Below are positions 1 through 58,921 of a DNA stretch of 58,921 nucleotides, piece by piece; the stretch's first letter is position 1, and every line of letters starts with the position of its first letter. The notes under the pieces are model-generated. The model searched no databases and was not told the origin of the DNA. It saw only the letters and a list, made by a program, of their open reading frames with translations. This stretch comes from Saccoglossus kowalevskii (lineage: Eukaryota; Hemichordata; Enteropneusta; Harrimaniidae). The stretch covers positions 1 through 58,921 of the forward strand of contig NW_003143917.1 of NCBI RefSeq assembly GCF_000003605.2, written 5' to 3'. The translations under genes and the position numbers were made by a program.

Positions 1-654
1 TCACCTTCGCTCATATTTATAATATAATCATGGTCCTTCGCTCTTATTTATAATATAAACGTGGTCCTTCGCTCATATTTATAATATAAACGTGGTCCTT
101 CGCTCATATGTATAATATAAACGTGGTCCTTCGCTCATATTTATAATATAAACGTGGTCCTTCGCTCATAGGTATAATATAAACGTGGTCCTTCGCTCAT
201 ATTTATAATATAAACGTGGTCCTTCGCTCATATGTATAATATAAACGTGGTCCTTCGCTCATATTTATAATATAAACATGGTCCTTCGCTCATATGTATA
301 ATATAAACGTGGTCCTTCGCTCATATTTATAATATAAACGTGGTCCTTCGCTCATATGTATAATATAAACGTGGTCCTTCGCTCATATGTATAATATAAA
401 CGTGGTCCTTCGCTCATATTTGTCACGTAATCACGGTCCTTCGCTCTTATTTATAAAATAATCGTGGTCCTTCGCTCATTTTTATAATATAAACGTCGTC
501 CTTCGCTCATTTTTATCACGTAATCATGGTCCTTCGCTCATATTCATAATATAATCGTGGTCCTTCGCTCATATTTATCACGTAATCGTGGTCCTTCGCT
601 CTTATTTATAATATAAACGTGGTCCTTCGCTCATATTTATAATATAAACGTGGT
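1..654 (+). repeat. Duplicated block, copy 1 (partner 7,895-8,548)
   Basis: At offset 7,894 this block matches 7,895-8,548 closely, including the rare CATAGGTATAAT monomer (ggta at 171 and 8,065) and TTATAAAATAATCG (near 451 and 8,345). From about 250 to 840 it also matches 17,900-18,490 at offset 17,650, giving three copies. The first three bases (TCA) differ from the partner (GGT), which may only reflect the window edge. Confidence 0.85.
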
Positions 655-1950
655 CCTTCGCTCATATTCATAATATAAACGTGGTCCTTCGATTATTTTT
701 ATAATATAAAAGTGGTCTTTCGCTCATATTTATAATATAAACGTGGTCCTTCGCTCATATTTATCACCAAATCATGGTCCTTCGCTCATATTTATAATAT
801 AATCATGGTCCTTCGCTCATATTTATAATATAATCGTGGTCCTTCGCTTATATTTATATTATAATCGTGTCCTTTGCTCTTATTTATAATATAATCGTGG
901 TCCTTCGCTCATATTTATAATATAAACGTGGTCCATCGCTCATTTTTATCACGTAATCATGGTCCTTCGCTCATATTTGTCACGTAATCACGGTCCTTCG
1001 CGCTTATTTATAATATAATCGTGGTCCTTCGCTCAATTTTATAATATAATCGTGGTCCTTTGCTCATATTTATAATATAATCGTGGTCCTTCGCTCATTT
1101 TTATAATATAAACGTCGACCTTCGCTCATTTTTATTACGTAATCATGGTCCTTCGCTCATATTTATAATATAATCGTGGTCCTTCGCTTATATTTATAAT
1201 ATAATCGTGTCCTTCGCTCTTATTTATAATATAATCGTGGTCCTTCGCTCATATTTATAATATAAACGTGGTCCTTCGCTCATATTTATCACCTAATCAT
1301 GGTCCTTCGCTCATATTTATAATATAATCATGGTCCTTCGCTCTTATTTATAATATAAATGTGGTCCTTCGCTCATATTTATAATATAAACGTGGTCCTT
1401 CGCTCATATTCATAATATAAACGTGGTCCTTCGCTCATATGTATAATATAAACGTGGTCCTTCGCTCATATTTATAATATAATCGTGGTCCTTCGCTCAT
1501 ATTTATCACGTAATCGTGGTCCTTCGCTCTTATTTATAATATAATCATGGTCCTTCGCTCATATTTATAATATAATCGCGGTCCTTCGCCTATATTTATA
1601 ATATAATCGTGTCCTTCGCTCTTATTTATAATATAATCGTGGTCCTTCGCTCATATTTATAATATAAACGTGGTCCATCGCTCATTTTTATCACGTAATC
1701 ATGGTCCTTCGCTCATATTTGTCACGTAATCACGGTCCTTCGCTCTTATTTATAATATAATCGTGGTCCTTCGCTCAATTTTATAATATAATCGTGGTCC
1801 TTCGCTCATATTTATAATATAATCGTGGTCCTTCGCTCATTTTTATAATATAAACGTCGACCTTCGCTCATTTTTATTACGTAATCATGGTCCTTCGCTC
1901 ATATTTATAATATAATCGTGGTCCTTCGCTCATATTTATAATATAATCGT

Positions 1951-2445
1951 GCTCGTTCGCTCATATTTATAGTTTAATCGTGGTGATTCGCTCATTTTTA
2001 TCTCGTAATCATGGTCATTCGCTCATATTTACAATGAAAACGAGGTCCTTCGCTCATATTTATAATATAAACGTGGTTTTTCGCTCATATGTATAATATA
2101 AACGTGGTCCTTCGCTCATATTTGTCACGTAATCACGGTCCTTCGCTCTTATTTATAATATAATCGTGGTCCTTCGCTCATTTTTATAATATAAACGTCG
2201 TCCTTCGCTCATTTTTATCACGTAATCATGGTCCTTCGCTCATATTCATAATATAATCGTGGTCCTTCGCTAATATTTATCACGTAATCGTGGTCCTTCG
2301 CTCTTATTTATAATATAAACGTGGTCCTTCGCTCATATTTATAATATAAACGTGGTCCTTCGCTCATATTAATAATATAAACGTGGTCCTTCGATTATAT
2401 TTATAATATAAACGTGGTCTTTCGCTTATATTTATAATATAAACG
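1951..2445 (+). repeat. Block led by aberrant monomers, copy 1 (partner 5,358-5,852)
   Basis: It opens with five unusually diverged monomers: GTGCTCGTTCGC, TTTATAGTTTAATCG, GTGGTGATTCGC with TTATCTCGTAATCATGG, GTCATTCGC, and TTACAATGAAAACGAGG. The block matches 5,358-5,852 at offset 3,407, through the CATATTAATAATATAAAC monomer (2,371 and 5,778). A truncated relic, GTGCTCGTCGCTC, occurs near 34,478. These monomers are the most divergent in family A. Confidence 0.85.
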
Positions 2446-3599
2446 TGGTCCTTCGCTCATATTTATCACGTAATCATGGTCCTTCGCTCATATTTATAAT
2501 ATAATCATGGTCCTTCGCTCTTATTTATAATATAAACGTGATCCTTCGCTCATATTTATAATATAAACGTGGTCCTTCGCTCATATTCATAATATAAACG
2601 TGATCCTTCGCTCATATGTATAATATAAACGTGGTCCTTCGCTCATATTTATAATATAAACGTGGTCCTTCGGTCATATTTATAATATAAACGTGGTCCT
2701 TCGCTCATATGTATAATATAAACGTGGTCCTTCGCTCATATTTATAATATAAACGTGGTCCTTCGCTCATATGTATAATATAAACGTGGTCCTTCGCTCA
2801 TATGTATAATATAAACGTGGTCCTTCGCTCATATTTGTCACGTAATCACGGTCCTTCGCTCTTATTTATAATATAATCTTGGTCCTTCGCTCATTTTTAT
2901 AATATAAACGTCGTCCTTCGCTCATTTTTATCACGTAATCATGGTCCTTCGCTCATATTCATAATATAATCGTGGTCCTTCGCTCATATTTATCACGTAA
3001 TCGTGGTCCTTCGCTCTTATTTATAATATAAACGTGGTCCTTCGCTCATATTTATAATATAAACGTGGTCCTTCGCTCATATTCATAATATAAACGTGGT
3101 CCTTCGATTATTTTTATAATATAAAAGTGGTCTTTCGCTCATATTTATAATATAAACGTGGTCCTTCGCTCATATTTATCACCTAATCATGGTCCTTCGC
3201 TCATATTTATAATATAATCGTGGTCCTTTGCTCATATTTATAATATAATCGTGGTCCTTCGCTCATTTTTATAATATAAACGTCGACCTTCGCTCATTTT
3301 TATTACGTAATCATGGTCCTTCGCTCATATTTATAATATAATCGTGGTCCTTCGCTTATATTTATAATATAATCGTGTCCTTCGCTCTTATTTATAATAT
3401 AATCGTGGTCCTTCGCTCATATTTATAATATAAACGTGGTCCTTCGCTCATATTTATCACCTAATCATGGTCCTTCGCTCATATTTATAATATAATCATG
3501 GTCCTTCGCTCTTATTTATAATATAAATGTGGTCCTTCGCTCATATTTATAATATAAACGTGGTCCTTCGCTCATATTCATAATATAAACGTGGTCCTT

Positions 3600-4340
3600 C
3601 GCTCATATGTATAATATAAACGTGGTCCTTCGCTCATATTCATAATATAAACGTGGTCCTTCGCTCATATGTATAATATAAACGTCGTCCTTCGCTCATA
3701 TTTATAATATAAACGTCGTCCTTCGCTCATATTTATAATATAAACGTGGTCCTTCGCTCATATGTATAATATAAACGTGGTCCTTCGCTCATATTTATAA
3801 TATAAACGTGGTCCTTCGCTCATATGTATAATATAAACGTGGTCCTTCGCTCATATGAATAATATAAACGTGGTCCTTCGCTCATATTTGTCACGTAATC
3901 ACGGTCCTTCGCTCTTATTTATAATATAATCGTGGTCCTTCGCTCATTTTTATAATATAAACGTCGTCCTTCGCTCATTTTTATCACGTAATCATGGTCC
4001 TTTGCTCATATTCAAAATATAATCGTGGTCCTTCGCTCATATTTATCACGTAATCGTGGTCCTTTGCTCTTATTTATAATATAAACGTGGTCCTTCGCTC
4101 ATATTTATAATATAAACGTGGTCCTTCGCTCATATTCATAATATAAACGTGGTCCTTCGATTATATTTATAATATAAACGTGGTCTTTCGCTTATATTTA
4201 TAATATAAACGTGGTCCTTCGCTCATATTTATCACCTAATCATGGTCCTTCGCTCATATTTATAATATAATCATGGTCCTTCGCTCTTATTTATAATATC
4301 AATGTGGTCCTTCGCTCATATTTATAATATAAACGTGGTC
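3600..4340 (+). repeat. Three-copy block with CATATGAATAAT monomer, copy 1
   Basis: Contains two successive CGTCGTCC monomers (3,683 and one unit on) and the rare CATATGAATAAT monomer (3,852). It matches about 8,700-9,415 at offset 5,076, and its right part matches 17,221-17,890. The limits are approximate because flanking monomers are themselves similar. Confidence 0.8.
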
Positions 4341-5357
4341 CTTCGCTCATATTCATAATATAAACGTGGTCCTTCGCTCATATGTATAATATAAACGTGG
4401 TCCTTCGCTCATATTTATAATATAATCGTGGTCCTTCGCTCATATTTGTCACGTAATCACGGTCCTTCGCTCTTATTTATAATATAATCTTGGTCCTTCG
4501 CTCATTTTTATAATATAAACGTCGTCCTTCGCTCATTTTTATCACGTAATCATGGTCCTTCGCTCATATTAATAATATAATCGTGGTCCTTCGCTCATAT
4601 TTATCACGTAATCGTGGTCCTTCGCTCTTATTTATAATATAAACGTGGTCCTTCGCTCATATTTATAATATAAATGTGGTCCTTCGCTCATATTCATAAT
4701 ATAAACGTGGTCCTTCGATTATTTTTATAATATAAACGTGGTCTTTCGCTCATATTTATAATATAAACGTGGTCCTTCGCTCATATTTATCACCTAATCA
4801 TGGTCCTTCGCTCATATTTATAATATAATCATGGTCCTTCGCTCATATTTATAATATAATCGTGGTCCTTCGCTTATATTTATAATATAATCGTGTCCTT
4901 CGCTCTTATTTATAATATAATCGTGGTCCTTCGCTCATATTTATAATATAAACGTGGTCCATCGCTCATTTTTATCACGTAATCATGGTCCTTCGCTCAT
5001 ATTTGTCACGTAATCACGGTCCTTCGCGCTTATTTATAATATAATCGTGGTCCTTCGCTCAATTTTATAATATAATCGTGGTCCTTCGCTCATATTTATA
5101 ATATAATCGTGGTCCTTCGCTTATATTTATAATATAATCGTGTCCTTCGCTCTTATTTATAATATAATCGTGGTCCTTCGCTCATATTTATAATATAAAC
5201 GTGGTCCATCGCTCATTTTTATCACGTAATCATGGTCCTTCGCTCATATTTGTCACGTAATCAAGGTCCTTCGCGCTTATTTATAATATAATCGTGGTCC
5301 TTCGCTCAATTTTATAATATAATCGTGGTCCTTCGCTCATATTTATAATATAATCGT

Positions 5358-5852
5358 GCTCGTTCGCTCATATTTATAGTTTAATCGTGGTGATTCGCTC
5401 ATTTTTATCTCGTAATCATGGTCATTCGCTCATATTTACAATGAAAACGAGGTCCTTCGCTCATATTTATAATATAAACGTGGTTTTTCGCTCATATGTA
5501 TAATATAAACGTGGTCCTTCGCTCATATTTGTCACGTAATCACGGTCCTTCGCTCTTATTTATAATATAATCGTGGTCCTTCGCTCATTTTTATAATATA
5601 AACGTCGTCCTTCGCTCATTTTTATCACGTAATCATGGTCCTTCGCTCATATTCATAATATAATCGTGGTCCTTCGCTAATATTTATCACGTAATCGTGG
5701 TCCTTCGCTCTTATTTATAATATAAACGTGGTCCTTCGCTCATATTTATAATATAAACGTGGTCCTTCGCTCATATTAATAATATAAACGTGGTCCTTCG
5801 ATTATATTTATAATATAAACGTGGTCTTTCGCTTATATTTATAATATAAACG
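5358..5852 (+). repeat. Block led by aberrant monomers, copy 2
   Basis: Second copy of 1,951-2,445, with the same five diverged leading monomers. Its left flank lacks the GTCGACC and TATTACGTAATCA monomers that precede copy 1, and its right flank switches to CCTTTGCTC at 5,850, so the duplication ends are visible on both sides. Confidence 0.85.
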
Positions 5853-5913
5853 TGGTCCTTTGCTCATATTTATAATATAATCGTGGTCCTTCGCTCATTT
5901 TTATAATATAAAC

Positions 5914-6407
5914 GTCGACCTTCGCTCATTTTTATTACGTAATCATGGTCCTTCGCTCATATTTATAATATAATCGTGGTCCTTCGCTTATATTTATAAT
6001 ATAATCGTGTCCTTCGCTCTTATTTATAATATAATCGTGGTCCTTCGCTCATATTTATAATATAAACGTGGTCCTTCGCTCATATTTATCACCTAATCAT
6101 GGTCCTTCGCTCATATTTATAATATAATCATGGTCCTTCGCTCATATTTATAATATTACCGTGGTCCTTCGCTTATATTTATAATATAATCGTGTCCTTC
6201 GCTCTTATTTATAATATAATCGTGGTCCTTCGCTCATGTTTATAATATAAACGTGGTCCTTCGCTCATATTTGTCACGTAATCACGGTCCTTCGCGCTTA
6301 TTTATAATATAATCGTGGTCCTACGCTCAATTTTATAATATAATCGTGGTCCTTTGCTCATATTTATAATATAATCGTGGTCCTTCGCTCATTTTTATAA
6401 TATAAAC
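5914..6407 (+). repeat. 494-bp higher-order module of family A (type copy)
   Basis: The distance between successive GTCGAC (or homologous) monomers is repeatedly 494 bp: 5,914 to 6,408, 11,887 to 12,381, 15,793 to 16,287, 19,197 to 19,691, 20,527 to 21,021, 21,486 to 21,980, and, counting point-mutated sites, about 7,120 to 7,614 and 32,032 to 32,526. This equals 16 monomers minus 2 bp, because each module holds two 30-bp TCGTGTCC monomers (for example at 6,006 and 6,191). The order inside is the SalI monomer, the TATTACGTAATCA monomer, then A+T monomers, a CACCTAATCATGG monomer, a GTCACGTAATCACGG monomer and a CTCAATTTTATAAT monomer. Confidence 0.85.
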
Positions 6408-7894
6408 GTCGACCTTCGCTCATTTTTATTACGTAATCATGGTCCTTCGCTCATATTCATAATATAATCGTGGTCCTTCGCTCATATTTATCACGTAATC
6501 GTGGTCCTTCGCTCTTATTTATAATATAAACGTGGTCCTTCGCTCATATTTATAATATAAACGTGGTCCTTCGCTCATATTCATAATATAAACGTGGTCC
6601 TTCGATTATTTTTATAATATAAACTTGGTCTTTCGCTCATATTTATAATATAAACGTGGTCCTTCGCTCATATTAATAATATAAACGTGGTCCTTCGATT
6701 ATTTTTATAATATAAACGTGGTCTTTCGCTCATATTTATAATATAAACGTGGTCCTTCGCTCATATTTATCACCTAATCATGGTCCTTCGCTCATATTTA
6801 TAATATAATCATGGTCCTTCGCTCATATTTATAATATAATCGTGGTCCTTCGCTTATATTTATATTATGATCGTGTCCTTCGCTCTTATTTATAATATAA
6901 TCGTGGTCCTTCGCTCATATTTATAATATAAACGTGGTCCATCGCTCATTTTTATCACGTAATCATGGTCCTTCGCTCATATTTGTCACGTAATCACGGT
7001 CCTTCGCGCTTATTTATAATATAATCGTGGTCCTTCGCTCAATTTTATAATATAATCGTGGTCCTTTGCTCATATTTATAATATAATCGTGGTCCTTCGC
7101 TCATTTTTATAATATAAACGTCAACCTTCGCTCATTTTTATTACGTAATCATGGTCCTTCGCTCATATTTATAATATAATCGTGGTCCTTCGCTTATATT
7201 TATAATATAATCGTGTCCTTCGCTCTTATTTATAATATAATCGTGGTCCTTCGCTCATATTTATAATATAAACGTGGTCCTTCGCTCATATTTATCACCT
7301 AATCATGGTCCTTCGCTCATATTTATAATATAATCATGGTCCTTCGCTCATATTTATAATATTATCGTGGTCCTTCGCTTATATTTATAATATAATCGTG
7401 TCCTTCGCTCTTATTTATAATATAATCGTGGTCCTTCGCTCATATTTATAATATAAACGTGGTCCTTCGCTCATATTTGTCACGTAATCACGGTCCTTCG
7501 CGCTTATTTATAATATAATCGTGGTCCTACGCTCAATTTTATAATATAATCGTGGTCCTTTGCTCATATTTATAATATAATCGTGGTCCTTCGCTCATTT
7601 TTATAATATAAACGTCGACCTTCGCTCATTTTTATTACGTAATCATGGTCCTTCGCTCATATTCATAATATAATCGTGGTCCTTCGCTCATATTTATCAC
7701 GTAATCGTGGTCCTTCGCTCTTATTTATAATATAAACGTGGTCCTTCGCTCATATTTATAATATAAACGTGGTCCTTCGCTCATATTCATAATATAAACG
7801 TGGTCCTTCGATTATATTTATAATATAAACGTGGTCTTTCGCCCATATTTATAATATAAACGTGGTCCTTCGCTCATATTTATCACCTAATCAT

Positions 7895-8548
7895 GGTCCT
7901 TCGCTCATATTTATAATATAATCATGGTCCTTCGCTCTTATTTATAATATAAACGTGGTCCTTCGCTCATATTTATAATATAAACGTGGTCCTTCGCTCA
8001 TATGTATAATATAAACGTGGTCCTTCGCTCATATTTATAATATAAACGTGGTCCTTCGCTCATAGGTATAATATAAACGTGGTCCTTCGCTCATATTTAT
8101 AATATAAACGTGGTCCTTCGCTCATATGTATAATATAAACGTGGTCCTTCGCTCATATTTATAATATAAACATGGTCCTTCGCTCATATGTATAATATAA
8201 ACGTGGTCCTTCGCTCATATTTATAATATAAACGTGGTCCTTCGCTCATATGTATAATATAAACGTGGTCCTTCGCTCATATGTATAATATAAACGTGGT
8301 CCTTCGCTCATATTTGTCACGTAATCACGGTCCTTCGCTCTTATTTATAAAATAATCGTGGTCCTTCGCTCATTTTTATAATATAAACGTCGTCCTTCGC
8401 TCATTTTTATCACGTAATCATGGTCCTTCGCTCATATTCATAATATAATCGTGGTCCTTCGCTCATATTTATCACGTAATCGTGGTCCTTCGCTCTTATT
8501 TATAATATAAACGTGGTCCTTCGCTCATATTTATAATATAAACGTGGT
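7895..8548 (+). repeat. Duplicated block, copy 2 of 1-654
   Basis: Copy of the window's first 654 bp, with the same succession of CATATGTATAAT, CATAGGTATAAT, GTCACGTAATCACGG and CGTCGTCC monomers. Homology stops at 8,549, where a C is missing from GTGGTCTTCGC and the next monomer changes type. That stop coincides with an indel-rich patch. Confidence 0.85.
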
Positions 8549-8700
8549 CTTCGCTCATATGTATAATATAAACGTGGTCCTTCGCTCATATTTATAATAT
8601 AATCGTGGTCCTTTCGCTCATATTTATCACGTAATCGTGGTCTTTCGCTCTTATTTATAATATAAACGTGGTCCTTCGCTAATATTATAATATAAACGTG
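8540..8700. repeat. Indel-rich patch in A1
   Basis: Off-length monomers cluster here: GTGGTCTTCGC (one C short), GTGGTCCTTTCGC (one T extra) and CTAATATTATAATATAAAC (one T short). The patch sits exactly at the right end of the 7,895-8,548 duplicate. Confidence 0.75.
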
Positions 8701-9505
8701 GTCCTTCGCTCATATTCATAATATAAACGTGGTCCTTCGCTCATATGTATAATATAAACGTCGTCCTTCGCTCATATTTATAATATAAACGTCGTCCTTC
8801 GCTCATATTTATAATATAAACGTGGTCCTTCGCTCATATGTATAATATAAACGTGGTCCTTCGCTCATATTTATAATATAAACGTGGTCCTTCGCTCATA
8901 TGTATAATATAAACGTGGTCCTTCGCTCATATGAATAATATAAACGTGGTCCTTCGCTCATATTTGTCACGTAATCACGGTCCTTCGCTCTTATTTATAA
9001 TATAATCGTGGTCCTTCGCTCATTTTTATAATATAAACGTCGTCCTTCGCTCATTTTTATCACGTAATCATGGTCCTTTGCTCATATTCATAATATAATC
9101 GTGGTCCTTCGCTCATATTTATCACGTAATCGTGGTCCTTCGCTCTTATTTATAATATAAACGTGGTCCTTCGCTCATATTTATAATATAAACGTGGTCC
9201 TTCGCTCATATTCATAATATAAACGTGGTCCTTCGATTATATTTATAATATAAACGTGGTCTTTCGCTTATATTTATAATATAAACGTGGTCCTTCGCTC
9301 ATATTTATCATCTAATCATGGTCCTTCGCTCATATTTATAATATAATCATGGTCCTTCGCTCTTATTTATAATATAAATGCGGTCCTTCGCTCATATTTA
9401 TAATATAAACGTGGTCCTTCGCTCATATTCATAATATAAACGTGGTCCTTCGCTCATATGTATAATATAAACGTGGTCCTTCGCTCATATTTATAATATA
9501 AACGT
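8700..9505 (+). repeat. Three-copy block with CATATGAATAAT monomer, copy 2
   Basis: Shares CATATGAATAAT (8,928) with copy 1. With 17,221-17,898 (offset 8,393) it shares both that monomer and the unique TTATCATCTAATCATGG monomer (9,308 and 17,701). Copies 2 and 3 therefore have a more recent common source than either has with copy 1, which reads CACCTAATCATGG at that point. Confidence 0.8.
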
Positions 9506-12459
9506 GGTCCTTCGGTCATATTTATAATATAAACGTGGTCCTTCGCTCATATGTATAATATAAACGTGGTCCTTCGCTCATATTTATAATATAAACGTGG
9601 TCCTTCGCTCATATGTATAATATAAACGTGGTCCTTCGCTCATATGTATAATATAAACGTGGTCCTTCGCTCATATTTGTCACGTAATCACGGTCCTTCG
9701 CTCTTATTTATAATATAATCTTGGTCCTTCGCTCATTTTTATAATATAAACGTCGTCCTTCGCTCATTTTTATCACGTAATCATGGTCCTTCGCTCATAT
9801 TCATAATATAATCGTGGTCCTTCGCTCATATTTATCACGTAATCGTGGTCCTTCGCTCTTATTTATAATATAAACGTCGTCCTTCGCTCATTTTTATCAC
9901 GTAATCATGGTCCTTCGCTCATATTCATAATATAAACGTGGTCCTTCGCTCATATTCATAATATAAACGTGGTCCTTCGATTATTTTTATAATATAAAAG
10001 TGGTCTTTCGCTCATATTTATAATATAAACGTGGTCCTTCGCTCATATTTATCACCTAATCATGGTCCTTCGCTCATATTTATAATATAATCGTGGTCCT
10101 TTGCTCATATTTATAATATAATCGTGGTCCTTCGCTCATTTTTATAATATAAACGTCGACCTTCGCTCATTTTTATCACGTAATCATGGTCTTCGCTCAT
10201 ATTTATAATATAATCATGGTCCTTCGCTCTTATTTATAATATAAATGTGGTCCTTCGCTCATATTTATAATATAAACGTTGTCCTTCGCTCATATTCATA
10301 ATATAAACGTGGTCCTTCGCTCATATGTATAATATAAACGTGGTCCTTCGCTCATATTTGTCACGTAATCACGGTCCTTCGCTCTTATTTATAATATAAT
10401 CTTGGTCCTTTGCTCATTTTTATAATATAAACGTCGTCCTTCGCTCATATTCATAATATAATCGTGGTCCTTCGCTCATATTTATCAAGTAATCGTGGTC
10501 CTTCGCTCTTATTTATAATATAAACGTGGTCCTTTGCTCATATTTATAATATAAACGTGGTCCTTCGCTCATATTCATAATATAAACGTGGTCCTTCGAT
10601 TATTTTTATAATATAAACGTGGTCTTTCGCTCATATTTATAATATAAACGTGGTCCTTCGCTCATATTTATCACCTAATCATGGTCCTTCGCTCATATTT
10701 ATAATATAATCATGGTCCTTCGCTCATATTTATAATATAATCGTGGTCCTTCGCTTATATTTATATTATAATCGTGTCCTTCGCTCTTATTTATAATATA
10801 ATCGTGGTCCTTCGCTCATATTTATAATATAAACGTGGTCCATCGCTCATTTTTATCACGTAATCATGGTCCTTCGCTCATATTTGTCACGTAATCACGG
10901 TCCTTCGCGCTTATTTATAATATAATCGTGGTCCTTCGCTCAATTTTATAATATAATCGTGGTCCTTTGCTCATATTTATAATATAATCGTGGTCCTTCG
11001 CTCATTTTTATAATATAAACGTCGACCTTCGCTCATTTTTATTACGTAATCATGGTCCTTCGCTCATATTTATAATATAATCGTGGTCCTTCGCTTATAT
11101 TTATAATATAATCGTGTCCTTCGCTCTTATTTATAATATAATCGTGGTCCTTCGCTCATATTTATAATATAAACGTGGTCCTTTGCTCATATTTATCACC
11201 TAATCATGGTCCTTCGCTCATATTTATAATATAATCATGGTCCTTCGCTCATATTTATAATATAATCGTGGTCCTTCGCTTATATTTATAATATAATCGT
11301 GTCCTTCGCTCTTATTTATAATATAATCGTGGTCCTTCGCTCATATTTATAATATAAACGTGGTCCTTCGCTCATATTTGTCACGTAATCACGGTCCTTC
11401 GCGCTTATTTATAATATAATCGTGGTCCTTCGCTCAATTTTATAATATAATCGTGGTCCTTTGCTCATATTTATAATATAATCGTGGTCCTTCGCTCTTA
11501 TTTATAATATAATCATGGTCCTTCGCTCATTTTTATAATATATACGTCGACCTTCGCTCATATTTATAATATAAACGTGGTCCTTCGCTCATATTCATAA
11601 TATAAACGTGGTCCTTCGATTATATTTATAATATAAACGTAGTCTTTCGCCCATATTTATAATATAAACGTGGTCCTTCGCTCATATTTATCACCTAATC
11701 ATGGTCCTTCGCTCATATTTATAATATAATCATGGTACTTCGCTCTTATTTATAATATAAACGTGGTCCTTCGCTCATATTTATAATATAAACGTGGTCC
11801 TTCGCTCATATTCATAATATAAACGTGGTCCTTCGCTCATATGTATAATATAAACGTGGTCCTTCGCTCATATCTATATTATAAACGTCGACCTTCGCTC
11901 ATTTTTATTACGTAATCATGGTCCTTCGCTCATATTTATAATATAATCGTGGTCCTTCGCTTATATTTATAATATAATCGTGTCCTTCGCTCTTATTTAT
12001 AATATAATCGTGGTCCTTCGCTCATATTTATAATATAAACGTGGTCCTTCGCTCATATTTATCACCTAATCATGGTCCTTCGCTCATATTTATAATATAA
12101 TCATGGTCCTTCGCTCATATTTATAATATAATCGTGGTCCTTCGCTTATATTTATAATATAATCGTGTCCTTCGCTCTTATTTATAATATAATCGTGGTC
12201 TTTCGCTCATATTTATAATATAAACGTGGTCCTTCGCTCATATTTGTCACGTAATCACGGTCCTTCGCGCTTATTTATAATATAATCGTGGTCCTTCGCT
12301 CAATTTTATAATATAATCGTGGTCCTTTGCTCATATTTATAATATAATCGTGGTCCTTCGCTCATTTTTATAATATAAACGTCGACCTTCGCTCATTTTT
12401 ATTACGTAATCATGGTCCTTCGCTCATATTCATAATATAATCGTGGTCCTTCGCTCATA

Positions 12460-17898: not shown

Positions 17899-17899
17899 G

Positions 17900-46527: not shown

Positions 46528-47472
46528 TCATGGTCCTTCGCTCTTATTTATAATATAAACGTGGTCCTTCGCTCATATTTATAATATAAACGTGGTCCTT
46601 CGCTCATGTTTATAATATAAACGTGGTCCTTCGCTCATATTTATAATATAAACGTGGTCCTTTGCTCATATTTATAATATAAACGTGCTCCTTCGCTCAT
46701 ATGTATAATATAAACGTGGTCCTTTGCTCATATTTATAATATAAACGTGGTCTTTTGCTCATATTTATAATATAAACGTGGTCTTTTGCTCATATTTATA
46801 ATATAAACGTGGTCCTTCGCTCATATTTATATTATACACGTGGTCCTTCGCTCATATTTGTCACGTAATCATGGTCCTTCACTCATATTTATAATACGAA
46901 CGTGGTCCTTTGCTCATATTTATAATATAAACGTGGTACTTCGCTCATATTTATAATATAAACATGGTCCTTCGCTCATATTTATAATATACACGTGGTC
47001 CTTCGCTCATATTTGTCACGTAATCATGGTCCTTCGCTCATATTTATAATATAAACGTCGTCCTTCGCTCATATTTATAAGATAAACGTGGTTCTTCGCT
47101 CATATTTATAAGATAAACGTTGTTCTTCGCTCATATTTATCACGTACTCATGGTCCTTCGCTCATATTTATAATATAAACGTTGTCCTTCGCTCATACTA
47201 ATAATATGAACGTGGTCCTTCGCTCTTATTTATAATATAAACGTGGTCCTTCGCTCATATTTATCACGTAATCGTGGTCCTTCGCTCATATTTATGATAT
47301 AAACGTGGTCCTTCGCTCATATTTGTCACGTAATCACGGTCCTTCGCTCATATTTATAATATAATCGTGGTCCTTCGCTCTTATTTATAATACAAACGTG
47401 GTCCTTCGCTCATATTTATGATATAAACGTGGTCCTTCGCTCATATTTATAATATAAACCTGGTCCTTCGCT
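46528..47472 (+). repeat. Family-B block, copy 2 of 29,240-30,185
   Basis: Same monomer order as 29,240-30,185, with small differences such as AACGTTGTTCTT near 47,118 and AATATGAACG near 47,207. Together with 42,585-45,834 it shows that about 4.5 kb of B1 is represented a second time in B2, separated by a longer insert (45,835-46,527 versus 28,985-29,239). Confidence 0.82.
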
Positions 47473-49740
47473 CATATTTATAATATAAACATGGTCCTTC
47501 GCTCATATTTATAATATACATGTGATCCTTCGCTCATATTTGTCACGTAATCATGGTCCTTCGCTCATATTTATAATATAAACGTGTTCCTTCGCTCATA
47601 TTTATAAGATAAACGTGGTTCTTCGCTCATATTTATAAGATAAACGTGGTTCTTCGCTCATATTTATCACGTACTCATGGTCCTTCGCTCATATTTATAA
47701 TATAAACGTTGTCCTTCGCTCATACTAATAATATAAACGTGGTCCTTCGCTCTTATTTATAATATAAACGTGGTCCTTCGCTCATATTTATCACGTAATC
47801 GTGGTCCTTCGCTCATATTTATGATATAAACGTGGTCCTTCGCTCATATTTGTCACATAATCACGGTCCTTCGCTCATATTTATAATATAATCGTGGTCC
47901 TTCGCTCTTATTTGTAATATAAACGTGGTCCTTCGCTCATATTTATGATATAAACGTGGTCCTTCGCTCATATTTATAATATAAACGTGGTCCTTCGCTC
48001 TTATTTATAATGTAAACGTGGTCCTTCGCTCTTATTTATAATATAAACGTGGTCCTTCGCTCTTATTTATAATATAAACGTGGTCCTTCGCTCATATTTA
48101 TAATATAAACGTGGTCCTTCGCTCATATTTATCACCTAATCATGGTCCTTCGCTCATATTTATAATATAAACGTGGTTCTTCGCTCATATTTATGATATA
48201 GACGTGATCCTTCGCTCATATTTATAATATAAACGTGGTCCTTCGCTCATATTTATAATATAAACGTGGTCCTTCGCTCATATTTATAATATAAACGTGG
48301 TCCTTCGCTCATATTTATAATATAAACGTGGTCCTTTGCTCATATTTATAATATAAATGTGGTCCTTCGCTCATATTTATCACGTAATCGTGGTCCTTCG
48401 CTCTTATTTATAATATAAACGTGGTCCTTCGCTCATATTTATAATATAAACATGGTCTTTCGCTCATATTTATAATATACACGTGGTCCTTCGCTCATAT
48501 TTATATTATACACGTGGTCCTTCGCTCATATTTGTCACGTAATCATGGTCCTTCACTCATATTTATAATAGGAACGTGGTCCTTTGCTCATATTTATAAT
48601 ATAAACGTGGTCCTTCGCTCATATTTATAATATAAACATGGTCCTGCGCTCATATTTATAATATAAACGTGGTCCTTTGCTCATATTTATAATATAAACG
48701 TGGTCCTTCGCCGGCTCATATGTATTATATAAAACATGGTCCTTCGCTCATATTTATAATATAAACGTGGTCCTTTGCTCATATTTATAACGTACTCGTG
48801 GTCCTTCGCTCATATTTATATGACGAACGTGGTCCTTTGCTCATATTTATAATATAAACGTGGTCCTTTGCTCATATTTATAATATAAACGTGGTCCTTC
48901 GCTCATATTTATATTATACACGTGGTCCTTCGCTCATATTTGTCACGTAATCATGGCCCTTCACTCATATTTATAATACGAACGTGGTCCTTTGCTCATA
49001 TTTATAATATAAACGTGGTCCTTCGCTCATATTTATAATATAAACATGGTCCTTCGCTCATATTTATAATATACACGTGGTCCTTCGCTCATATTTATAA
49101 TATAAACGTGGTCCTTTGCTCATATTTATAATATAAACGTGGTCTTTTGCTCATATTTATAATATAAACGTGGTCTTTTGCTCATATTTATAATATAAAC
49201 GTGGTCCTTCGCTCATATTTATAATATAAACGTGGTCCTTCGCTTATATTTATAATATAAACGTGGTCCTTCGCTCATATTTATAATATAAACGTGGTCC
49301 TTCGCTCATATTTATAATATAAACGTGGTCCTTTGCTCATATTTAAAATATAAATGTGGTCCTTCGCTCATATTTATCACGTAATCGTGGTCTTTCGCTC
49401 TTATTTATAATATAAACGTGGTCCTTCGCTCATATTTATAATATAAACGTGGTCCTTCGCTCATGTTTATAATATAAACGTGGTCCTTCGCTCATATTTA
49501 TAATATAAACGTGGTCCTTTGCTCATATTTATAATATAAACGTGCTCCTTCGCTCATATGTATAATATAAACGTGGTCCTTTGCTCATATTTATAACGTA
49601 TTCATGGTCCTTCGCTCATATTTATAATAGAAACGTGGTCCTTCGCTCATATTTATAATATAAACGTGGTCCTTTGCTCATATTTATAATATAAACGTGG
49701 TCCTTTGCTCATATTTATAACGTACTCGTGGTCCTTCGCT

Positions 49741-51174
49741 CATATTTATAATACGAACGTGGTCCTTTGCTCCTATTTATACTATAAACGTGGTCCTTTG
49801 CTCATATTAATAATATAAACGTGGTCCTTCGCTCATATTTATATTATACACGTGGTCCTTCGCTCATATTTGTCACGTAATCATGGTCCTTCACTTATAT
49901 TTATAATACGAACGTGGTCCTTTGCTCATATTTATAATATAAACGTGGTCCTTCGCTCATGTTTATAATATAAACGTGGTCCTTCGCTCATATTTATAAT
50001 ATAAACGTGGTCCTTTGCTCATATTTATAATATAAACGTGCTCCTTCGCTCATATGTATAATATAAACGTGGTCCTTTGCTCATATTTATAACGTACTCA
50101 TGGTCCTTCGCTCATATTTATAATATAAACGTGGTCCTTCGCTCATATTTATAATATAAACGTGGTCCTTTGCTCATATTTATAATATAAACGTGGTCCT
50201 TCGCCGGCTCATATGTATTATATAAACGTGGTCCTTCGCTCATATTTATAATATAAACGTGGTCCTTTGCTCATATTTATAACGTACTCGTGGTCCTTCG
50301 CTCATATTTATAATACGAACGTGGTCCTTTGCTCATATTTATAATATAAACGTGGTACTTTGCTCATATTTATAATATAAACGTGGTCCTTCGCTCATAT
50401 TTATATTATACACGTGGTCCTTCGCTCATATTTGTCACGTAATCATGGTCCTTCACTCATATTTATAATACGAACGTGGTCCTTTGCTCCTATTTATACT
50501 ATAAACGTGGTCCTTTGCTCATATTTATAATATAAACGTGGTCCTTCGCTCATATTTATATTATACACGTGGTCCTTCGCTCATATTTGTCACGTAATCA
50601 TGGTCCTTCACTCATATTTATAATACGAACGTGGTCCTTTGCTCATATTTATAATATAAACGTGGTCCTTCGCTCATGTTTATAATATAAACGTGGTCCT
50701 TCGCTCATATTTATAATATAAACGTGGTCCTTTGCTCATATTTATAATATAAACGTGCTCCTTCGCTCATATGTATAATATAAACGTGGTCCTTTGCTCA
50801 TATTTATAACGTACTCATGGTCCTTCGCTCATATTTATAATATAAACGTGGTCCTTCGCTCATATTTATAATATAAACGTGGTCCTTTGCTCATATTTAT
50901 AATATAAACGTGGTCCTTCGCCGGCTCATATGTATTATATAAACGTGGTCCTTCGCTCATATTTATAATATAAACGTGGTCCTTTGCTCATATTTATAAC
51001 GTACTCGTGGTCCTTCGCTCATATTTATAATACGAACGTGGTCCTTTGCTCATATTTATAATATAAACGTGGTACTTTGCTCATATTTATAATATAAACG
51101 TGGTCCTTCGCTCATATTTATATTATACACGTGGTCCTTCGCTCATATTTGTCACGTAATCATGGTCCTTCACT
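49741..51174 (+). repeat. Exact-register 717-bp tandem duplication
   Basis: Two adjacent copies, 49,741-50,457 and 50,458-51,174, are 717 bp each (23 monomers, one carrying the 4-bp CGGC insert). Shared rarities at constant offset 717 are TCCTATTTATACTATAAAC (49,771 and 50,488), CATGTTTATAAT (gttt at 49,961 and 50,678), CGCCGGCTC (50,204 and 50,921) and GTGGTACTTTGC (50,356 and 51,073). I noticed two differences: ATTAATAAT versus ATTTATAAT near 49,808, and CACTTATAT versus CACTCATAT near 49,893. This is the most recent-looking duplication in the window. Confidence 0.88.
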
Positions 51175-51699
51175 CATATTTATAATACGAACGTGGTCCT
51201 TTGCTCATATTTATAATATAAACGTGGTCCTTCGCTCATATTTATAATATAAACATGGTCCTTCGCTCATATTTATAATATACACGTGGTCCTTCGCTCA
51301 TATTTATAATATAAACGTGGTCCTTTGCTCATATTTATAACGTACTCATGGTCCTTCGCTCATATTTATAATACGAACGTGGTCCTTTGCTCATATTTAT
51401 AATATAAACGTGGTCTTTTGCTCATATTTATAATATAAACGTGGTCCTTCGCTCATATTTATATTATACACGTGGTCCTTCGCTCATATTTGTCACGTAA
51501 TCATGGTCCTTCACTCATATTTATAATACGAACGTGGTCCTTTGCTCATATTTATAATATAAACGTGGAACTTCGCTCATATTTATAATATAAACATGGT
51601 CCTTCGCTCATATTTATAATATACACGTGGTCCTTCGCTCATATTTGTCACGTAATCATGGTCTTTCGCTCATATTTATAATATAAACGTGGTCCTTCG

Positions 51700-52050
51700 C
51701 TCATATTTATAATATAAAACATGGTCCTTCGCTTATATTTATAATATACACGTGGTCCTTCGCTCATATTTATAAATATAAACGTGGTCCTTTGCTCATA
51801 TTTATAACGTACTCATAGTCCTTCGCTCATATTTATAATACCAAACGTGGTTCTTTGCTCATATTTAATAATAATAAACGTGGTCTTTTGCTCATATTTA
51901 TAAATATAACGGGATCTTTTGCTCATATTTATAATATTAAACGTTGTTCCTTCGCTTATATTTATATTATACACGTGGTCCTTCGCTCATATTTTGTCAC
52001 GTAAATCATGGTCCTTCACTCATATTTATATACGAACGTGGTCCTTTGCT
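51700..52050. repeat. Indel-rich patch in B2
   Basis: Successive units show extra bases: TATAAAACATGG, TTTATAAATATAAACG, ATACCAAACG, TTTAATAATAATAAACG, TTTATAAATATAACGGGATC, AATATTAAACG and TTTTGTCACGTAAATCATGG. One later unit has a deletion (TTTATATACGAACG). Distance counting supports a net gain: the CGGC sites at 50,921 and 55,708 are 4,787 bp apart, whereas 154 monomers plus 4 would be 4,778. The single 69-codon open frame of the window starts in this patch. Confidence 0.8.
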
Positions 52051-52471
52051 CATATTTATAATATAAACGTGGTACTTCGCTCATATTTATCACCTAATCA
52101 TGGTCCTTCGCTCATATTTATAATATAAACGTGGTCCTTCGCTCATATTTGTCACGTAATCATGGTCCTTCGCTCATATTTATAATATAAACGTGGTCCT
52201 TCGCTCATATTTATAATATAAATGTGGTCCTTCGCTCATATTTATAATATAAACGTGGTCCTTCGCTCATATTTATAATATAAATGTGGTCCTTCGCTCA
52301 TATTTATCACGTAATCGTGGTCTTTCGCTCTTATTTATAATATAAACGTGGTCCTTCGCTCATATTTATAATATAAACGTGGTCCTTCGCTCATGTTTAT
52401 AATATAAACGTGGTCCTTCGCTCATATTTATAATATAAACGTGGTCCTATGCTCATATTTATAATATAAAC

Positions 52472-52719
52472 GTGCTCCTTCGCTCATATGTATAATATAA
52501 ACGTGGTCCTTCGCTCATATTTATAATATAAACGTGGTCTTTTGCTCATATTTATAATATAAACGTGGTTTTTTGCTCATATTTATAATATAAACGTGCT
52601 CCTTCGCTCATATGTATAATATAAACGTGGTCCTTCGCTCATATTTATAATATAAACGTGGTCTTTTGCTCATATTTATAATATAAACGTGGTTTTTTGC
52701 TCATATTTATAATATAAAC
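52472..52719 (+). repeat. Four-monomer (124-bp) tandem duplication
   Basis: The monomer order GTGCTCC plus CATATGTATAAT, a canonical unit, GTGGTCTTTTGC, then GTGGTTTTTTGC is repeated twice in direct succession (GTGCTCC at 52,472 and 52,596). The same doubled tetramer occurs at 54,394 and 54,518, and a single copy starts at 53,588. Confidence 0.85.
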
Positions 52720-52744
52720 GTGGTCCTTCGCTCATATTTATATT

Positions 52745-53569
52745 ATACACGTGGTCCTTCGCTCATATTTGTCACGTAATCATGGTCCTTCGCTCATATT
52801 TATAATATAAACGTCGTCCTTCGCTCATATTTATAAGATAAACGTGGTTCTTCGCTCATATTTATAAGATAAACGTGGTTCTTCGCTCATATTTATCACG
52901 TACTCATGGTCCTTCGCTCATATTTATAATATAAACGTTGTCCTTCGCTCATACTAATAATATAAACGTGGTCCTTCGCTCTTATTTATAATATAAACGT
53001 GGTCCTTCGCTCATATTTATCACGTAATCGTGGTCCTTCGCTCATATTTATGATATAAACGTGGTCCTTCGCTCATATTTGTCACGTAATCACGGTCCTT
53101 CGCTCATATTTATAATATAATCGTGGTCCTTCGCTCTTATTTATAATATAAACGTGGTCCTTCGCTCATATTTATGATATAAACGTGGTCCTTCGCTCAT
53201 ATTTATAATATAAACCTGGTCCTTCGCTCTTATTTATAATATAAACGTGGTCCTTCGCTCATATTTATAATATAAACGTGGTCCTTCGCTCATATTTATG
53301 ATATAAACGTGGTCCTTCGCTCATATTTATAATATAAACCTGGTCCTTCGCTCTTATTTATAATATAAACGTGGTCCTTCGCTCATATTTATAATATAAA
53401 CGTGGTCCTTCGCTCATATTTATAATATAATCGTGGTCCTTCGCTCTTATTTATAATATAAACGTGGTCCTTCGCTCATATTTATGATATAAACGTGGTC
53501 CTTCGCTCATATTTATAATATAAACCTGGTCCTTCGCTCTTATTTATAATATAAACGTGGTCCTTCGCT
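52745..53569 (+). repeat. Family-B block, copy 3 of 29,701-30,525
   Basis: Colinear with 29,701-30,525 at offset 23,044. It ends where CTCTTATTTATAAT in B1 is replaced by CTCATATTTATAAT. The AAACCTGG monomers at 53,215, 53,339 and 53,525 keep the 124- and 186-bp spacing found at 30,171, 30,295 and 30,481 and, in part, at 24,521, 24,645, 24,831 and 25,017. Confidence 0.82.
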
Positions 53570-54393
53570 CATATTTATAATATAAACGTGCTCCTTCGCT
53601 CATATGTATAATATAAACGTGGTCCTTCGCTCATATTTATAATATAAACGTGGTCTTTTGCTCATATTTATAATATAAACGTGGTTTTTTGCTCATATTT
53701 ATAATATAAACGTGGTCCTTCGCTCATATTTATATTATACACGTAGTCCTTCGCTCATATTTGTCACGTAATCATGGTCCTTCACTCATATTTATAATAC
53801 GAACGTGGTCCTTTGCTCATATTTATAATATAAACGTGGTACTTCGCTCATATTTATAATATAAACATGGTCCTTCGCTCATATTTATAATATACACGTG
53901 GTCCTTCGCTCATATTTGTCACGTAATCATGGTCCTTCGCTCATATTTATAATATAAACGTCGTCCTTCGCTCATATTTATAAGATAAACGTGGTTCTTC
54001 GCTCATATTTATAAGATAAACGTGGTTCTTCGCTCATATTTATCACGTAATCGTGGTCCTTCGCTCATATTTATGATATAAACGTGGTCCTTCGCTCATA
54101 TTTGTCACGTAATCACGGTCCTTCGCTCATATTTATAATATAATCGTGGTCCTTCGCTCATATTTATAATATAAACGTGGTCCTTCGCTCATATTTATAA
54201 TATAAATGTGGTCCTTCGCTCATATTTATCACGTAATCGTGGTCTTTCGCTCTTATTTATAATATAAACGTGGTCCTTCGCTCATATTTATAATATAAAC
54301 GTGGTCCTTCGCTCATATTTATAATATAAACGTGGTCCTTCGCTCATATTTATAATATAAACGTGGTCCTTTGCTCATATTTATAATATAAAC

Positions 54394-54641
54394 GTGCTCC
54401 TTCGCTCATATGTATAATATAAACGTGGTCCTTCGCTCATATTTATAATATAAACGTGGTCTTTTGCTCATATTTATAATATAAACGTGGTTTTTTGCTC
54501 ATATTTATAATATAAACGTGCTCCTTCGCTCATATGTATAATATAAACGTGGTCCTTCGCTCATATTTATAATATAAAAGTGGTCTTTTGCTCATATTTA
54601 TAATATAAACGTGGTTTTTTGCTCATATTTATAATATAAAC
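54394..54641 (+). repeat. Second occurrence of the doubled 124-bp tetramer
   Basis: Same doubled tetramer as 52,472-52,719, with one difference noted in the second half (AATATAAAAGTGG near 54,575). Its presence at two places shows that the doubled form itself was copied. Confidence 0.83.
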
Positions 54642-57600
54642 GTGGTCCTTCGCTCATATTTATATTATACACGTGGTCCTTCGCTCATATTTGACACGTA
54701 ATCATGGTCCTTCGCTCATATTTATAATATAAACGTCGTCCTTCGCTCATATTTATAAGATAAACGTGGTTCTTCGCTCATATTTATAAGATAAACGTGG
54801 TTCTTCGCTCATATTTATCACGTACTCATGGTCCTTCGCTCATATTTATAATATAAACGTTGTCCTTCGCTCATACTAATAATATAAACGTGGTCCTTCG
54901 CTCTTATTTATAATATAAACGTGGTCCTTCGCTCATATTTATCACGTAATCGTGGTCCTTCGCTCATATTTATGATATAAACTTGGTCCTTCGCTCTTAT
55001 TTATAATATAAACGTGGTCCTACGCTCATATTTATGATATAAACGTGGTCCTTCGCTCATATTTATAATATAAACCTGGTCCTTCGCTCTTATTTATAAT
55101 ATAAACGTGGTCCTTCGCTCTTATTTATAATATAAACGTGGTCCTTCGCTCTTATTTATAATATAAACGTGGTCCTTCGCTCATATTTATAATATAAACG
55201 TGGTCCTTCGCTCATATTTATCACCTAATCATGGTCCTTCGCTCATATTTATAATATAAACGTGGTCCTTCGCTCATATTTATAATATAAACGTGGTCCT
55301 TCGCTCATATTTATAATATAAACGTGGTCCTTTGCTCATATTTATAATATAAATGTGGTCCTTCGCTCATATTTATCACGTAATCGTGGTCCTTCGCTCT
55401 TATTTATAATATAAACGTGGTCCTTCGCTCATATTTATAATATAAACATGGTCCTTCGCTCATATTTATAATATACACGTGGTCCTTCGCTCATATTTGT
55501 CACGTAATCATGGTCCTTCACTCATATTTATAATACGAACGTGGTCGTTTTCTCATATTTATAATATAAACGTGATCCTTCGCTCATATTTATAATATAA
55601 ACATGGTCCTTCGCTCATATTCATAATATACACGTGGTCCTTCGCTAATATTTATAAATATAAACGTGGTCCTTTGCTCATATTTATAATATAAACGTGG
55701 TCCTTCGCCGGCTCATATGTATTATATAAACGTGGTCCTTCGCTCATATTTATAATATAAACGTGGTCCTTTGCTCATATTTATAACGTACTCGTGGTCC
55801 TTCGCTCATATTTATAATACGAACGTGGTCCTTTGCTCATATTTATAATATAAACGTGATCTTTTGCTCATATTTATAATATAACCGTGGTCCTTCGCTC
55901 ATATTTATATTATACACGTGGTCCTTCGCTCATATTTGTCACGTAATCATGGTCCTTCACTCATATTTATAATACGAACGTGGTCCTTTGCTCATATTTA
56001 TAATATAAACGTGGTCCTTCGCTCATATTTATAATATAAACACGGTCCTTCGCTCATATTTATAATATACACGTGGTCCTTCGCTCATATTTGTCACGTA
56101 ATCATGGTCCTTCGCTCATATTTATAATATAAACGTGGTCCTTCGCTCATATTTATAAGATAAACGTGGTTCTTCGCTCATATTTATAAGATAAACGTGG
56201 TTCTTCGCTCATATTTATCACGTACTCATGGTCCTTCGCTCATATTTATAATATAAACGTTGTCCTTCGCTCATACTAATAATATAAACGTGGTCCTTCG
56301 CTCTTATTTATAATATAAACGTGGTCCTTCGCTCATATTTATCACGTAATCGTGGTCATTCGCTCATATTTATGATATAAACGTGGTCCTTCGCTCATAT
56401 TTATAATATAATCGTGGTCCTTCGCTCTTATTTATAATATAAACGTGGTCCTTCGCTCATATTTATGATATAAACGTGGTCCTTCGCTCATATTTATAAT
56501 ATAAACCTGGTCCTTCGCTCTTATTTATAATATAAACGTGGTCCTTCGCTCTTATTTATAATATAAACGTGGTCCTTCGCTCATATTTATGATATAAACG
56601 TGGTCTTTCGCTCATATTTATCACCTAATCATGGTCCTTCGCTCATATTTATAATATAAACGTGGTCCTTCGCTCATATTTATGATATAAACGTGGTCCT
56701 TCGCTCATATTTATAATATAAACGTGGTCCTTCGCTCATATTTATAATATAAACGTGGTCCTTCGCTCATATTTATAATATAAACGTGGTCCTTCGCTCA
56801 TATTTATAATATAAATGTGGTCCTTCTCTCATATTTATCACGTAATCGTGGTCTTTCGCTCTTATTTATAATATAAACGTGGTCCTTCGCTCATATTTAT
56901 AATATAAACGTGGTCCTTCGCTCATATTTATAATATAAACGTGGTCCTTTGCTCATATTTATAATATAAACGTGCTCCTTCGCTCATATGTATAATATAA
57001 ACGTGGTCCTTTGCTCATATTTATAACGTACTCATGGTCCTTCGCTCATATTTATAATATAAACGTGGTCCTTCGCTCATATTTATAATATAAACGTGGT
57101 CTTTTGCACATATTTATAATATAAACATGGTTCTTTCGCTCATATTTATAATATACACGTGGTCCTTTGCTCATATTTATAATATAAACGTGGTCTTTTG
57201 CTCATATTTATAACATAAACGTGGTCCTTCGCTCATATTTATAATATAAACGTGGTCCTTCGCTCATATTTATAATATAAACGTGGTCCTTTGCTCATAT
57301 TTATAACGTACTCATGGTCCTTCGCTCATATTTATAATACGAACGTGGTCCTTTGCTCATATTTATAATATAAACGTGGTCTTTTGCTCATATTTATAAC
57401 ATAAACGTGGTCCTTCGCTCATATTTATAATATAAACGTGGTCCTTCGCTCATATTTATAATATAAACGTGGTCCTTTGCTCATATTTATAATATAAATG
57501 TGGTTCTTCGCTCATATTTATAAGATAAACGTTGTTCTTCGCTCATATTTATCACGTACTCATGGTCCTTCGCTCATATTTATAATATAAACGTTGTCCT

Positions 57601-58890
57601 TCGCTCATACTAATAATATAAACGTGGTCCTTCGCTCTTATTTATAATATAAACGTGGTCCTTCGCTCATATTTATCACGTAATCGTGGTCCTTCGCTCA
57701 TATTTATGATATAAACGTGGTCCTTCGCTCATATTTGTCACATGATCACGGTCCTTCGCTCATATTTATAATATAATCGTGGTCCTTCGCTCTTATTTGT
57801 AATATAAACGTGGTCCTTCGCTCATATTTATGATATAAACGTGGTCCTTCGCTCATATTTATAATATAAACGTGGTCCTTCGCTCTTATTTATAATGTAA
57901 ACGTGGTCCTTCGCTCTTATTTATAATATAAACGTGGTCCTTCGCTCTTATTTATAATATAAACGTGGTCCTTCGCTCATATTTATAATATAAACGTGGT
58001 CCTTCGCTCATATTTATCACCTAATCATGATCCTTCGCTCATATTTATAATATAAACGTGGTTCTTCGCTCAAATTTATGATATAGACGTGATCCTTCGC
58101 TCATATTTATAATATAAACGTGGTCCTTCGCTCATATTTATAATATAAACGTGGTCCTTCGCTCATATTTATAATATAAACGTGGTCCTTCGCTCATATT
58201 TATAATATAAACGTGGTCCTTCGCTCATATTTATAATATAAACGTGGTCCTTCGCTCATATTTATAATATAAACGTGGTCCTTCGCTCATATTTATAATA
58301 TAAACGTGGTCCTTCGCTCATATGTATAATATAAACGTGGTCCTTCGCTCATATTTATAACGTACTCATGGTCCTTCGCTCATATTTATAATATAAACGT
58401 GGTCCTTCGCTCATATTTATAATATAAACGTGGTCTTTCGCTCATATTTATAATATAAACGTGGTCCTTTGCTCATATTTATAACGTACTCGTGGTCCTT
58501 CGCTCATATTTATAATACGAACGTGGTCCTTTGCTCATATTTATAATATAAACGTGGTCCTTTGCTCATATTTATAATATAAACGTGGTCCTTCGCTCAT
58601 ATTTATATTATACACGTGGTCCTTCGCTCATATTTGTCACGTAATCATGGTCCTTCACTCATATTTATAATACGAACATGGTCCTTTGCTCATATTTTAT
58701 AATATAAACGTGGTCCTTCGCTCATATTTATAATATAAACATGGTCCTGCGCTCATATTTATAATATACACGTGGTCCTTTGCTCATATTTGTCACGTAA
58801 TCATGGTCCTTCACTCATATTTATAATACGAACGTGGTCCTTTGCTCATATTTATAATATAAACGTGGTCCTTCGCTCATATTTACAATA

Positions 58891-58921
58891 TAAACATGGT
58901 CCTTTGCTCAAATTTTATTGA
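58891..58921. repeat. Divergent last monomer at the right window edge
   Basis: The final unit reads normally to CCTTTGCTCA and then departs from the consensus as AATTTTATTGA. It may be the start of array decay, a diverged family member resembling TTTTTATTACG, or simply the sequence end; one partial monomer is too little to tell. Confidence 0.4.

Follow-up and report, generated by a model that had tools for sequence, protein, structure and literature searches.

Introduction

Satellites that come from element-borne repeats are already known. The internal TIR-220 repeat of the Tetris foldback transposon of Drosophila virilis also forms longer arrays (PMC4079207), Ogre-derived satellites of Lathyrus sativus occur as short arrays inside element copies that are occasionally expanded to long arrays (PMC7004042), and Helitron-associated satellites of Crassostrea gigas form short scattered arrays between conserved element ends (PMC8268682). 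Here we describe a 31-bp satellite of the hemichordate Saccoglossus kowalevskii, which fills contig NW_003143917.1 of RefSeq assembly GCF_000003605.2 (the whole 58,921-base stretch, hereafter the window) and is arranged there in four alternating blocks of two monomer families. What is new is that the same repeat occurs elsewhere in the genome as short arrays that share their flanks. On balance, the contig is probably an expanded, element-related satellite that was remodelled by out-of-register exchange.

The locus resembles each of these systems in part. Like TIR-220, it combines an element-internal tandem repeat with longer arrays, the Tetris unit being about 220 bp long and present in up to 66 copies, as against 31 bp and 1,899 copies in the window, and the carrier of the present repeat being unclassified (PMC4079207). 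Dispersed short arrays together with a long array are also found for the Ogre satellites, whose carrier, in contrast, is a named long terminal repeat retrotransposon (PMC7004042). Short scattered arrays are likewise common to this repeat and the C. gigas satellites, for which the tabulated units include lengths from 48 bp to over 2 kb (PMC8268682). With respect to internal organization, orangutan alpha-satellite is described as a patchwork of higher-order repeat blocks and thus, as here, holds several variant-order families in blocks within one array, whereas the window has a 31-bp unit and no regular higher-order period (PMC12428378). Ruminant satellite I has a 31-bp basic unit in common with the window, but those units are reported as fixed in monomers of 0.7–1 kb with 46–55% G+C (PMC7288315, PMC7835801, PMC2760882). 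It was rejected as a counterpart, as the window shows no 0.7–1 kb period and a G+C content of 33.5% by base counts.

A single 31-bp array in four alternating blocks

The window consists of satellite alone, in one uninterrupted tandem array of a 31-bp unit, which TRF reported as a single row (4-58915, period 31, 1899.5 copies). Wrap-around alignment, followed by cutting in register, yielded 1,899 monomers of 274 distinct types, with a mean identity of 92.6% to the consensus GGTCCTTCGCTCATATTTATAATATAAACGT. The core TTCGCTC was counted 1,453 times on the plus strand of the window, and its complement not once. No Rfam match at the gathering score was obtained across the window, and the longest of its seven open frames of at least 60 codons has 72 codons. 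The array is therefore of the kind that defines satellite DNA, long, head-to-tail, made of one unit and non-coding.

A preliminary description of this DNA, made from the letters alone, had proposed four blocks in the order A1-B1-A2-B2 with little mixing and joins near 23.4, 31.2 and 37.7 kb, and had named monomer clustering in fixed register as one way to check it. We carried out such a clustering by exact monomer type, without the coordinates of that description, using a two-state hidden Markov model (HMM). The best of eight random starts (the others ended at equal or worse likelihood, and the segments given are those of the best) produced four segments, 32-23435, 23436-31197, 31198-37638 and 37639-58921, and the best of four further starts placed the joins at 23345, 31198 and 37735. 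The join positions are good to about four monomers, and the blocks were defined as follows:

1..23435, plus strand: block A1, family A, about 756 monomers, with an irregular recurrence near 126 monomers (3.9 kb)
23436..31197, plus strand: block B1, family B, 250 monomers
31198..37638, plus strand: block A2, family A, 208 monomers
37639..58921, plus strand: block B2, family B, 685 monomers, reaching the contig end

Two further results support this division. The first singular value of 20-monomer bins was 16.1, compared with a maximum of 8.4 in 100 shuffles. In a held-out test, diagnostic types were defined as those occurring at least three times in A1 and absent from B2, or the reverse (31 A and 26 B types), and 12 monomers were dropped (4, 2 and 5 at the three joins, plus the last one). 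Block A2 then contained 88 A and 0 B diagnostic monomers among 206, and block B1 contained 1 A and 100 B among 248. When the roles were swapped, with types occurring at least twice, A1 contained 370 A and 5 B among 753 monomers, and B2 4 A and 249 B among 680. The alternating blocks, their joins and the scarcity of mixing are thus confirmed in the contig sequence, where the pattern is unusually clean. With three HMM states (segments of at least 20 monomers), A stayed one state and B split into two; with four states, A was split too.

The two families differ by the variants they use and by the order of these variants, and hardly by overall divergence, which was 13.0% for A-A, 12.0% for B-B and 13.2% for A-B comparisons (12.9, 11.9 and 12.9% in a sampled repeat). 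With one monomer given, the next retained an entropy of 2.04 bits, compared with 3.83 bits (sd 0.02) when the order was shuffled 20 times, so a preferred monomer order, one of the marks of a higher-order repeat, is present; the other, a regular higher-order period, was not found in the array. In A1 the best recurrence lies at 126 monomers (about 3.9 kb), where 13% of the rarer monomers matched; several lags, all weak, were seen in B2. The best 30-monomer match between A1 and B2 was 92.2%, identical to the shuffled mean of 92.2%, and at this length no order is shared beyond that of shuffles. A common ancestral order for A and B was rejected, with no excess at 30 or 40 monomers and a marginal one at 20. 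The families appear to be patterns that arose independently on the same monomer, and their orders look unrelated. Between blocks of the same family, by contrast, the best 20- and 30-monomer windows were 100% identical, both for A1-A2 and for B1-B2, and a long-range relation of same-family blocks is supported. When the window was compared with itself, 20-monomer windows with at least 97% identity formed 232 runs without gaps, at many offsets. Eleven monomers beside the end of B1 (30825-31166) recur near the contig end (58370-58711), 10 of the 11 being identical, and this pair includes two types found nowhere else.

With regard to the monomer itself (columns 1–12 and 19–31), its first part, GGTCCTTCGCTC, is well conserved both in this contig and among the dispersed arrays described below. 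Columns 21–30 vary between two forms, TAATATAAAC and TCACGTAATC, each of them present in the window as well as among dispersed arrays. Such a pattern could be due to a protein-binding site or to a mutational effect. The contig stops within the last monomer (58898-58921), the final part of which differs at a few bases from the repeat; this may weakly hint at an error at the contig end or at the beginning of an array edge. As for external matches, positions 1-2000 of the window had none among plasmids or phages, and the monomer patterns had none in the viral_contigs or genome_contigs collections (the looser pattern matches 868 places in the window and so misses about half of the monomers). Six short monomer stretches were found as text in none of the papers searched, and no exact overlap of 15–2999 bases, a sign of circularity, exists between the contig ends.

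The repeat belongs to a dispersed element

The assembly (572,110,611 bases in 4,830 contigs, the window being contig C3503) was searched for further copies of the repeat. As this search skips very common words and does not list the window itself, its array counts are lower bounds, and long arrays may be missed. The 31-bp repeat was detected on at least 15 other contigs at 77–95% identity, and a further search added a sixteenth, C2885. The loci fetched, C2885 excluded, hold 16 arrays on 15 contigs, 371–3,471 bp long and with 627 monomers, and 12 of these arrays have other sequence on both sides.

The flanks of these arrays are related. By eye, right flanks are alike in 15 of the 16 arrays over about 80–200 bp, with C370 as the exception and C2196 and C2501 alike in part. 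A common right terminus, with at most four mismatches, is present in 11 of the 16, with unrelated DNA beyond it; it ends in GTGAGTACC or a near variant, and this right end holds several copies of GGTCCTTCG, the same letters as the monomer start. A left flank is common to arrays on C948, C3820 (minus strand), C4304 and C4031, at 87–95% identity over 0.35–1.5 kb (that of C4031 ends with its contig), and older relatives of it lie on C1560 and C2501, at about 71–78%. Since short arrays with shared flanks lie inside copies of one dispersed element, the repeat is part of that element, which we infer to be mobile.

In the element loci the left flank also recurs, both inverted and repeated, an arrangement that suggests a modular, foldback-like carrier. 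Helitrons have CTRR at their 3' end, which the right terminus found here does not match. Two arrays on C3820 (10243-10923, minus strand, and 16384-17629, plus strand) are opposed, about 5.5 kb apart, with their common right ends outward, as in a foldback-like element. Near position 19425 of C4632 a 2-kb minus-strand array gives way at once to a short piece on the plus strand, the orientation of the repeat changing over a few bases. Finally, the left flanks of C948, C3820 and C370 contain a second, degenerate tandem repeat, with copies about 155–160 bp apart in C948 and seven overlapping matches in C370.

The dispersed arrays were compared with the two families of the window. Only 32 of 330 dispersed monomer types also occur in the window, accounting for 204 of the 627 dispersed monomers, as is to be expected if each array has been homogenised on its own. 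The consensus of the dispersed arrays is the same as that of family A, and family B departs from it at position 28. In contrast, when 12-monomer windows were scored in 15 of the 16 arrays (the 11-monomer array of C2752 being too short), B was nearer in more windows in 10 arrays and A in 5. As the consensus favours A and the windows favour B, neither family is clearly older. The best 372-bp matches of these 15 arrays were 86–95% to A and 86–96% to B, most of them no more than about 2 points away from the shuffled control. The plus-strand array of C3820 exceeded its control by the most, 3.3 points in the match to B (95.7 against 92.4), and was nearer to B in 27 of its 28 windows. Separate progenitor arrays for A and B were looked for among the 15 arrays, and no clear one was found.

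The joins between blocks

The three joins, together with one patch inside A2 that is not a join, are as follows:

23345..23465, plus strand: A1/B1 join, with four private monomers, of which three have a length of 30 bp
31136..31228, plus strand: B1/A2 join, in register, within common-type monomers and with no private patch
33303..33523, plus strand: indel-rich private patch within A2, with flanks of 8 monomers each that match the place from 36524
37639..37766, plus strand: A2/B2 join, four private monomers of 33, 33, 30 and 32 bp

The two A-to-B joins are separate, and are not copies of one boundary. Past the last unit common to both A ends, A1 keeps to the A order through another nine monomers (one is private), and B2 begins about 18 monomers earlier in B order than B1. 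For each join, its left and right flanks of 8 monomers were sought together elsewhere in the window. The best co-occurrence required 28 edits for one A-to-B join and 27 for the other, and 23 edits for the B-to-A join. In a control with 60 random positions and a 4-monomer gap, the median was 5 edits and the 90th percentile 22.

The private monomers at the A-to-B joins raise the question of whether the block order is an artefact. The window contains 153 private monomers, one of them cut by the contig end, and 40 of the uncut ones are odd-length. They are clustered, as 28 five-monomer windows hold at least four of them, compared with a mean of 0.4 and a maximum of 5 in 500 shuffles. Indel-rich patches were listed at 13.0, 14.8, 23.4, 33.4, 37.7 and 51.7–52.0 kb; as patches were chosen by odd length, their excess of indels is circular. 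Those at 13035-13279 and 51691-52039 lie within blocks, and their flanks co-occur elsewhere only loosely (19 edits in 16 monomers, between the 75th and 90th percentiles of random positions). The patches may be scars left by mutation, or else noise in the consensus where assembly joints are weak.

A serious possibility, though the less likely one, is that the contig is an assembly chimera in which separate A and B arrays, from different loci or haplotypes, were fused at one or both A-to-B joins. Such a fusion would fit the private, indel-rich monomers at both of these joins, a neighbourhood that is rare, as three or more odd-length monomers are nearby at only 1.7% of all positions. It would also fit the nature of the indels, 36 of 47 private ones in the chosen patches adjoining the same base, as consensus errors often do, and the fact that the contig holds nothing but satellite. 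Moreover, both flanks of the patch at 33.3–33.5 kb are identical to, and in step with, the place from 36524; being collinear, they imply that such a patch need not mark a rearrangement and can be noise rather than history. The best matches of the A-to-B joins elsewhere in the genome, 88% and 90%, point weakly the same way, given the words skipped in that search and the unlisted window. On the other side, no 20-monomer stretch of A1 exceeds 94.4% identity to B2, so that accurate reads are unlikely to have been confused, at least between these two blocks; the B1/A2 join has no patch; and the similarity of A1 to A2 and of B1 to B2 ties the blocks of each family together.

A different explanation, which we consider unlikely, starts from a B array that was originally continuous and received A2, a segment of 6.4 kb from family A, through conversion or break-induced template switching. 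The end of B1 and the start of B2 can indeed be taken as neighbours in the native order of B (for instance against 40347), and the end of A1 and the start of A2 cannot be so taken in A, where 275 of 300 random pairs were equal or better at 6 monomers per side. However, 104 of 300 random B pairs fit equally well at that length, and the fit alone is no evidence. The insertion of A2 into continuous B was thus tried and found not significant.

Similarity at about 17 kb

The preliminary description had explained the A-B-A-B order by the duplication of a segment of about 17 kb across an A/B boundary, later rearranged, on the grounds of similar offsets between A1 and A2 copies and between B1 and B2 copies. 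The offsets do exist, with 36 identical monomers at 16,850 bp (27849 and 44699), 17 at 17,288, 15 at 17,198 and 14 at 17,111. Among matches of 97% identity or more, a similarity near 17 kb is the best one for B1-B2, where it extends for about 4.8 kb:

25485..30328, plus strand: B1 part of the best B1-B2 similarity, offset 16.85–17.29 kb, 97–98% identity
42370..47616, plus strand: B2 part of the same similarity

For A1-A2, in contrast, it is one of several. The fraction of A2 covered by A1 was 0.71 at 21.0 kb, 0.66 at 24.5 kb, 0.64 at 15.0 kb, 0.60 at 17.0 kb, 0.56 at 30.5 kb and 0.54 at 19.0 kb. The matches at 17.2, 21.0 and 24.9 kb are separated by steps of about 3.9 kb, like the 126-monomer recurrence of A1. 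Even for B1-B2, the bin at 16.5–17.0 kb reached 0.60 (the best), followed by 0.52 at 23.0 kb, and that at 17.0–17.5 kb only 0.18.

We regard a single tandem duplication of about 17 kb across an A/B boundary, followed by rearrangement, as very improbable. Besides the B1-B2 offset, it would account for a permissive gapped search in which 14180-20311 with 31291-37638 had the top score among separate A1-A2 alignments (248, compared with 227 and 205); these self-alignments drifted between harmonics and are cited for this explanation only. The two A ends are also alike, at 97.5% over 36 monomers, but at an offset of 14,573 bp. On the B side of the joins the corresponding offset is 14,863 bp, in a piece of only 11 monomers, 8 of them identical, and both values differ from 17 kb. 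Furthermore, if a boundary had been duplicated the A-to-B boundary should occur twice, whereas different units meet at 23.4 and 37.7 kb; with no close joint context elsewhere, one boundary-spanning duplication does not offer the simplest account. If two later deletions next to the joins are added to it, the account becomes less simple. As the leading model, the 17-kb duplication as a single cause was therefore discarded, given the other A offsets, the unlike A-to-B joins and the flanking offsets of 14.6–14.9 kb, and what stands of it is the long-range relation of same-family blocks and the B1-B2 similarity near 17 kb.

Origin of the array

Expansion of an element-related satellite with remodelling by out-of-register exchange, the origin that we favour, would have proceeded as follows. 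The 31-bp unit is the internal tandem repeat of the dispersed element, and the long array would have grown from an element-borne array. Families A and B would then have been built separately through repeated duplication of stretches of about 10–60 monomers by unequal exchange, as the many 97–100% matches at many offsets lead us to infer. At least one out-of-register exchange, or segmental copying, would then have placed A2 within B to give the A-B-A-B order. The B1/A2 join has the look of homologous exchange between monomers that the families share; the two A-to-B joins would have arisen as separate events. The array is non-coding and most likely ordinary satellite DNA, for which no cellular function would be needed.

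Several observations weigh against this origin. Regarding the element, no Pfam match was obtained in the 9 open reading frames scanned of the 25 listed in its flank, leaving the carrier unclassified; only its right end was found, and neither a left end nor target duplications were seen; and none of the dispersed arrays stands out clearly as the source of A or B. The same observations would be made if the element had captured a long satellite that was already there. Regarding the array, both A-to-B joins lie in indel-rich patches, where 3 of 4 and 4 of 4 monomers are odd-length; the placement of A2 in continuous B did not reach significance, with 175, 130 and 104 of 300 random pairs equal at 4, 5 and 6 monomers per side; the permissive search ranks an A1-A2 alignment near 17.2 kb first; and at 20 monomers the A1-B2 match of 94.4% is marginally above the maximum of 94.0 in 10 shuffles.

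A bolder version of the proposed history, to which we assign a low probability, is that two arrays derived from the same element repeat were separately amplified, each with an order of its own, then joined and block-shuffled through exchange at single 31-bp units, and that the A-to-B points keep mutation-rich scars. If this were true, the contig would record individual error-prone exchange events in a young satellite. In any case, one repeat is seen in S. kowalevskii both as short element-borne arrays and as a long two-family array of about 1,900 ordered monomers, and this ordered two-family array can be used to test how satellite families stay apart or mix.

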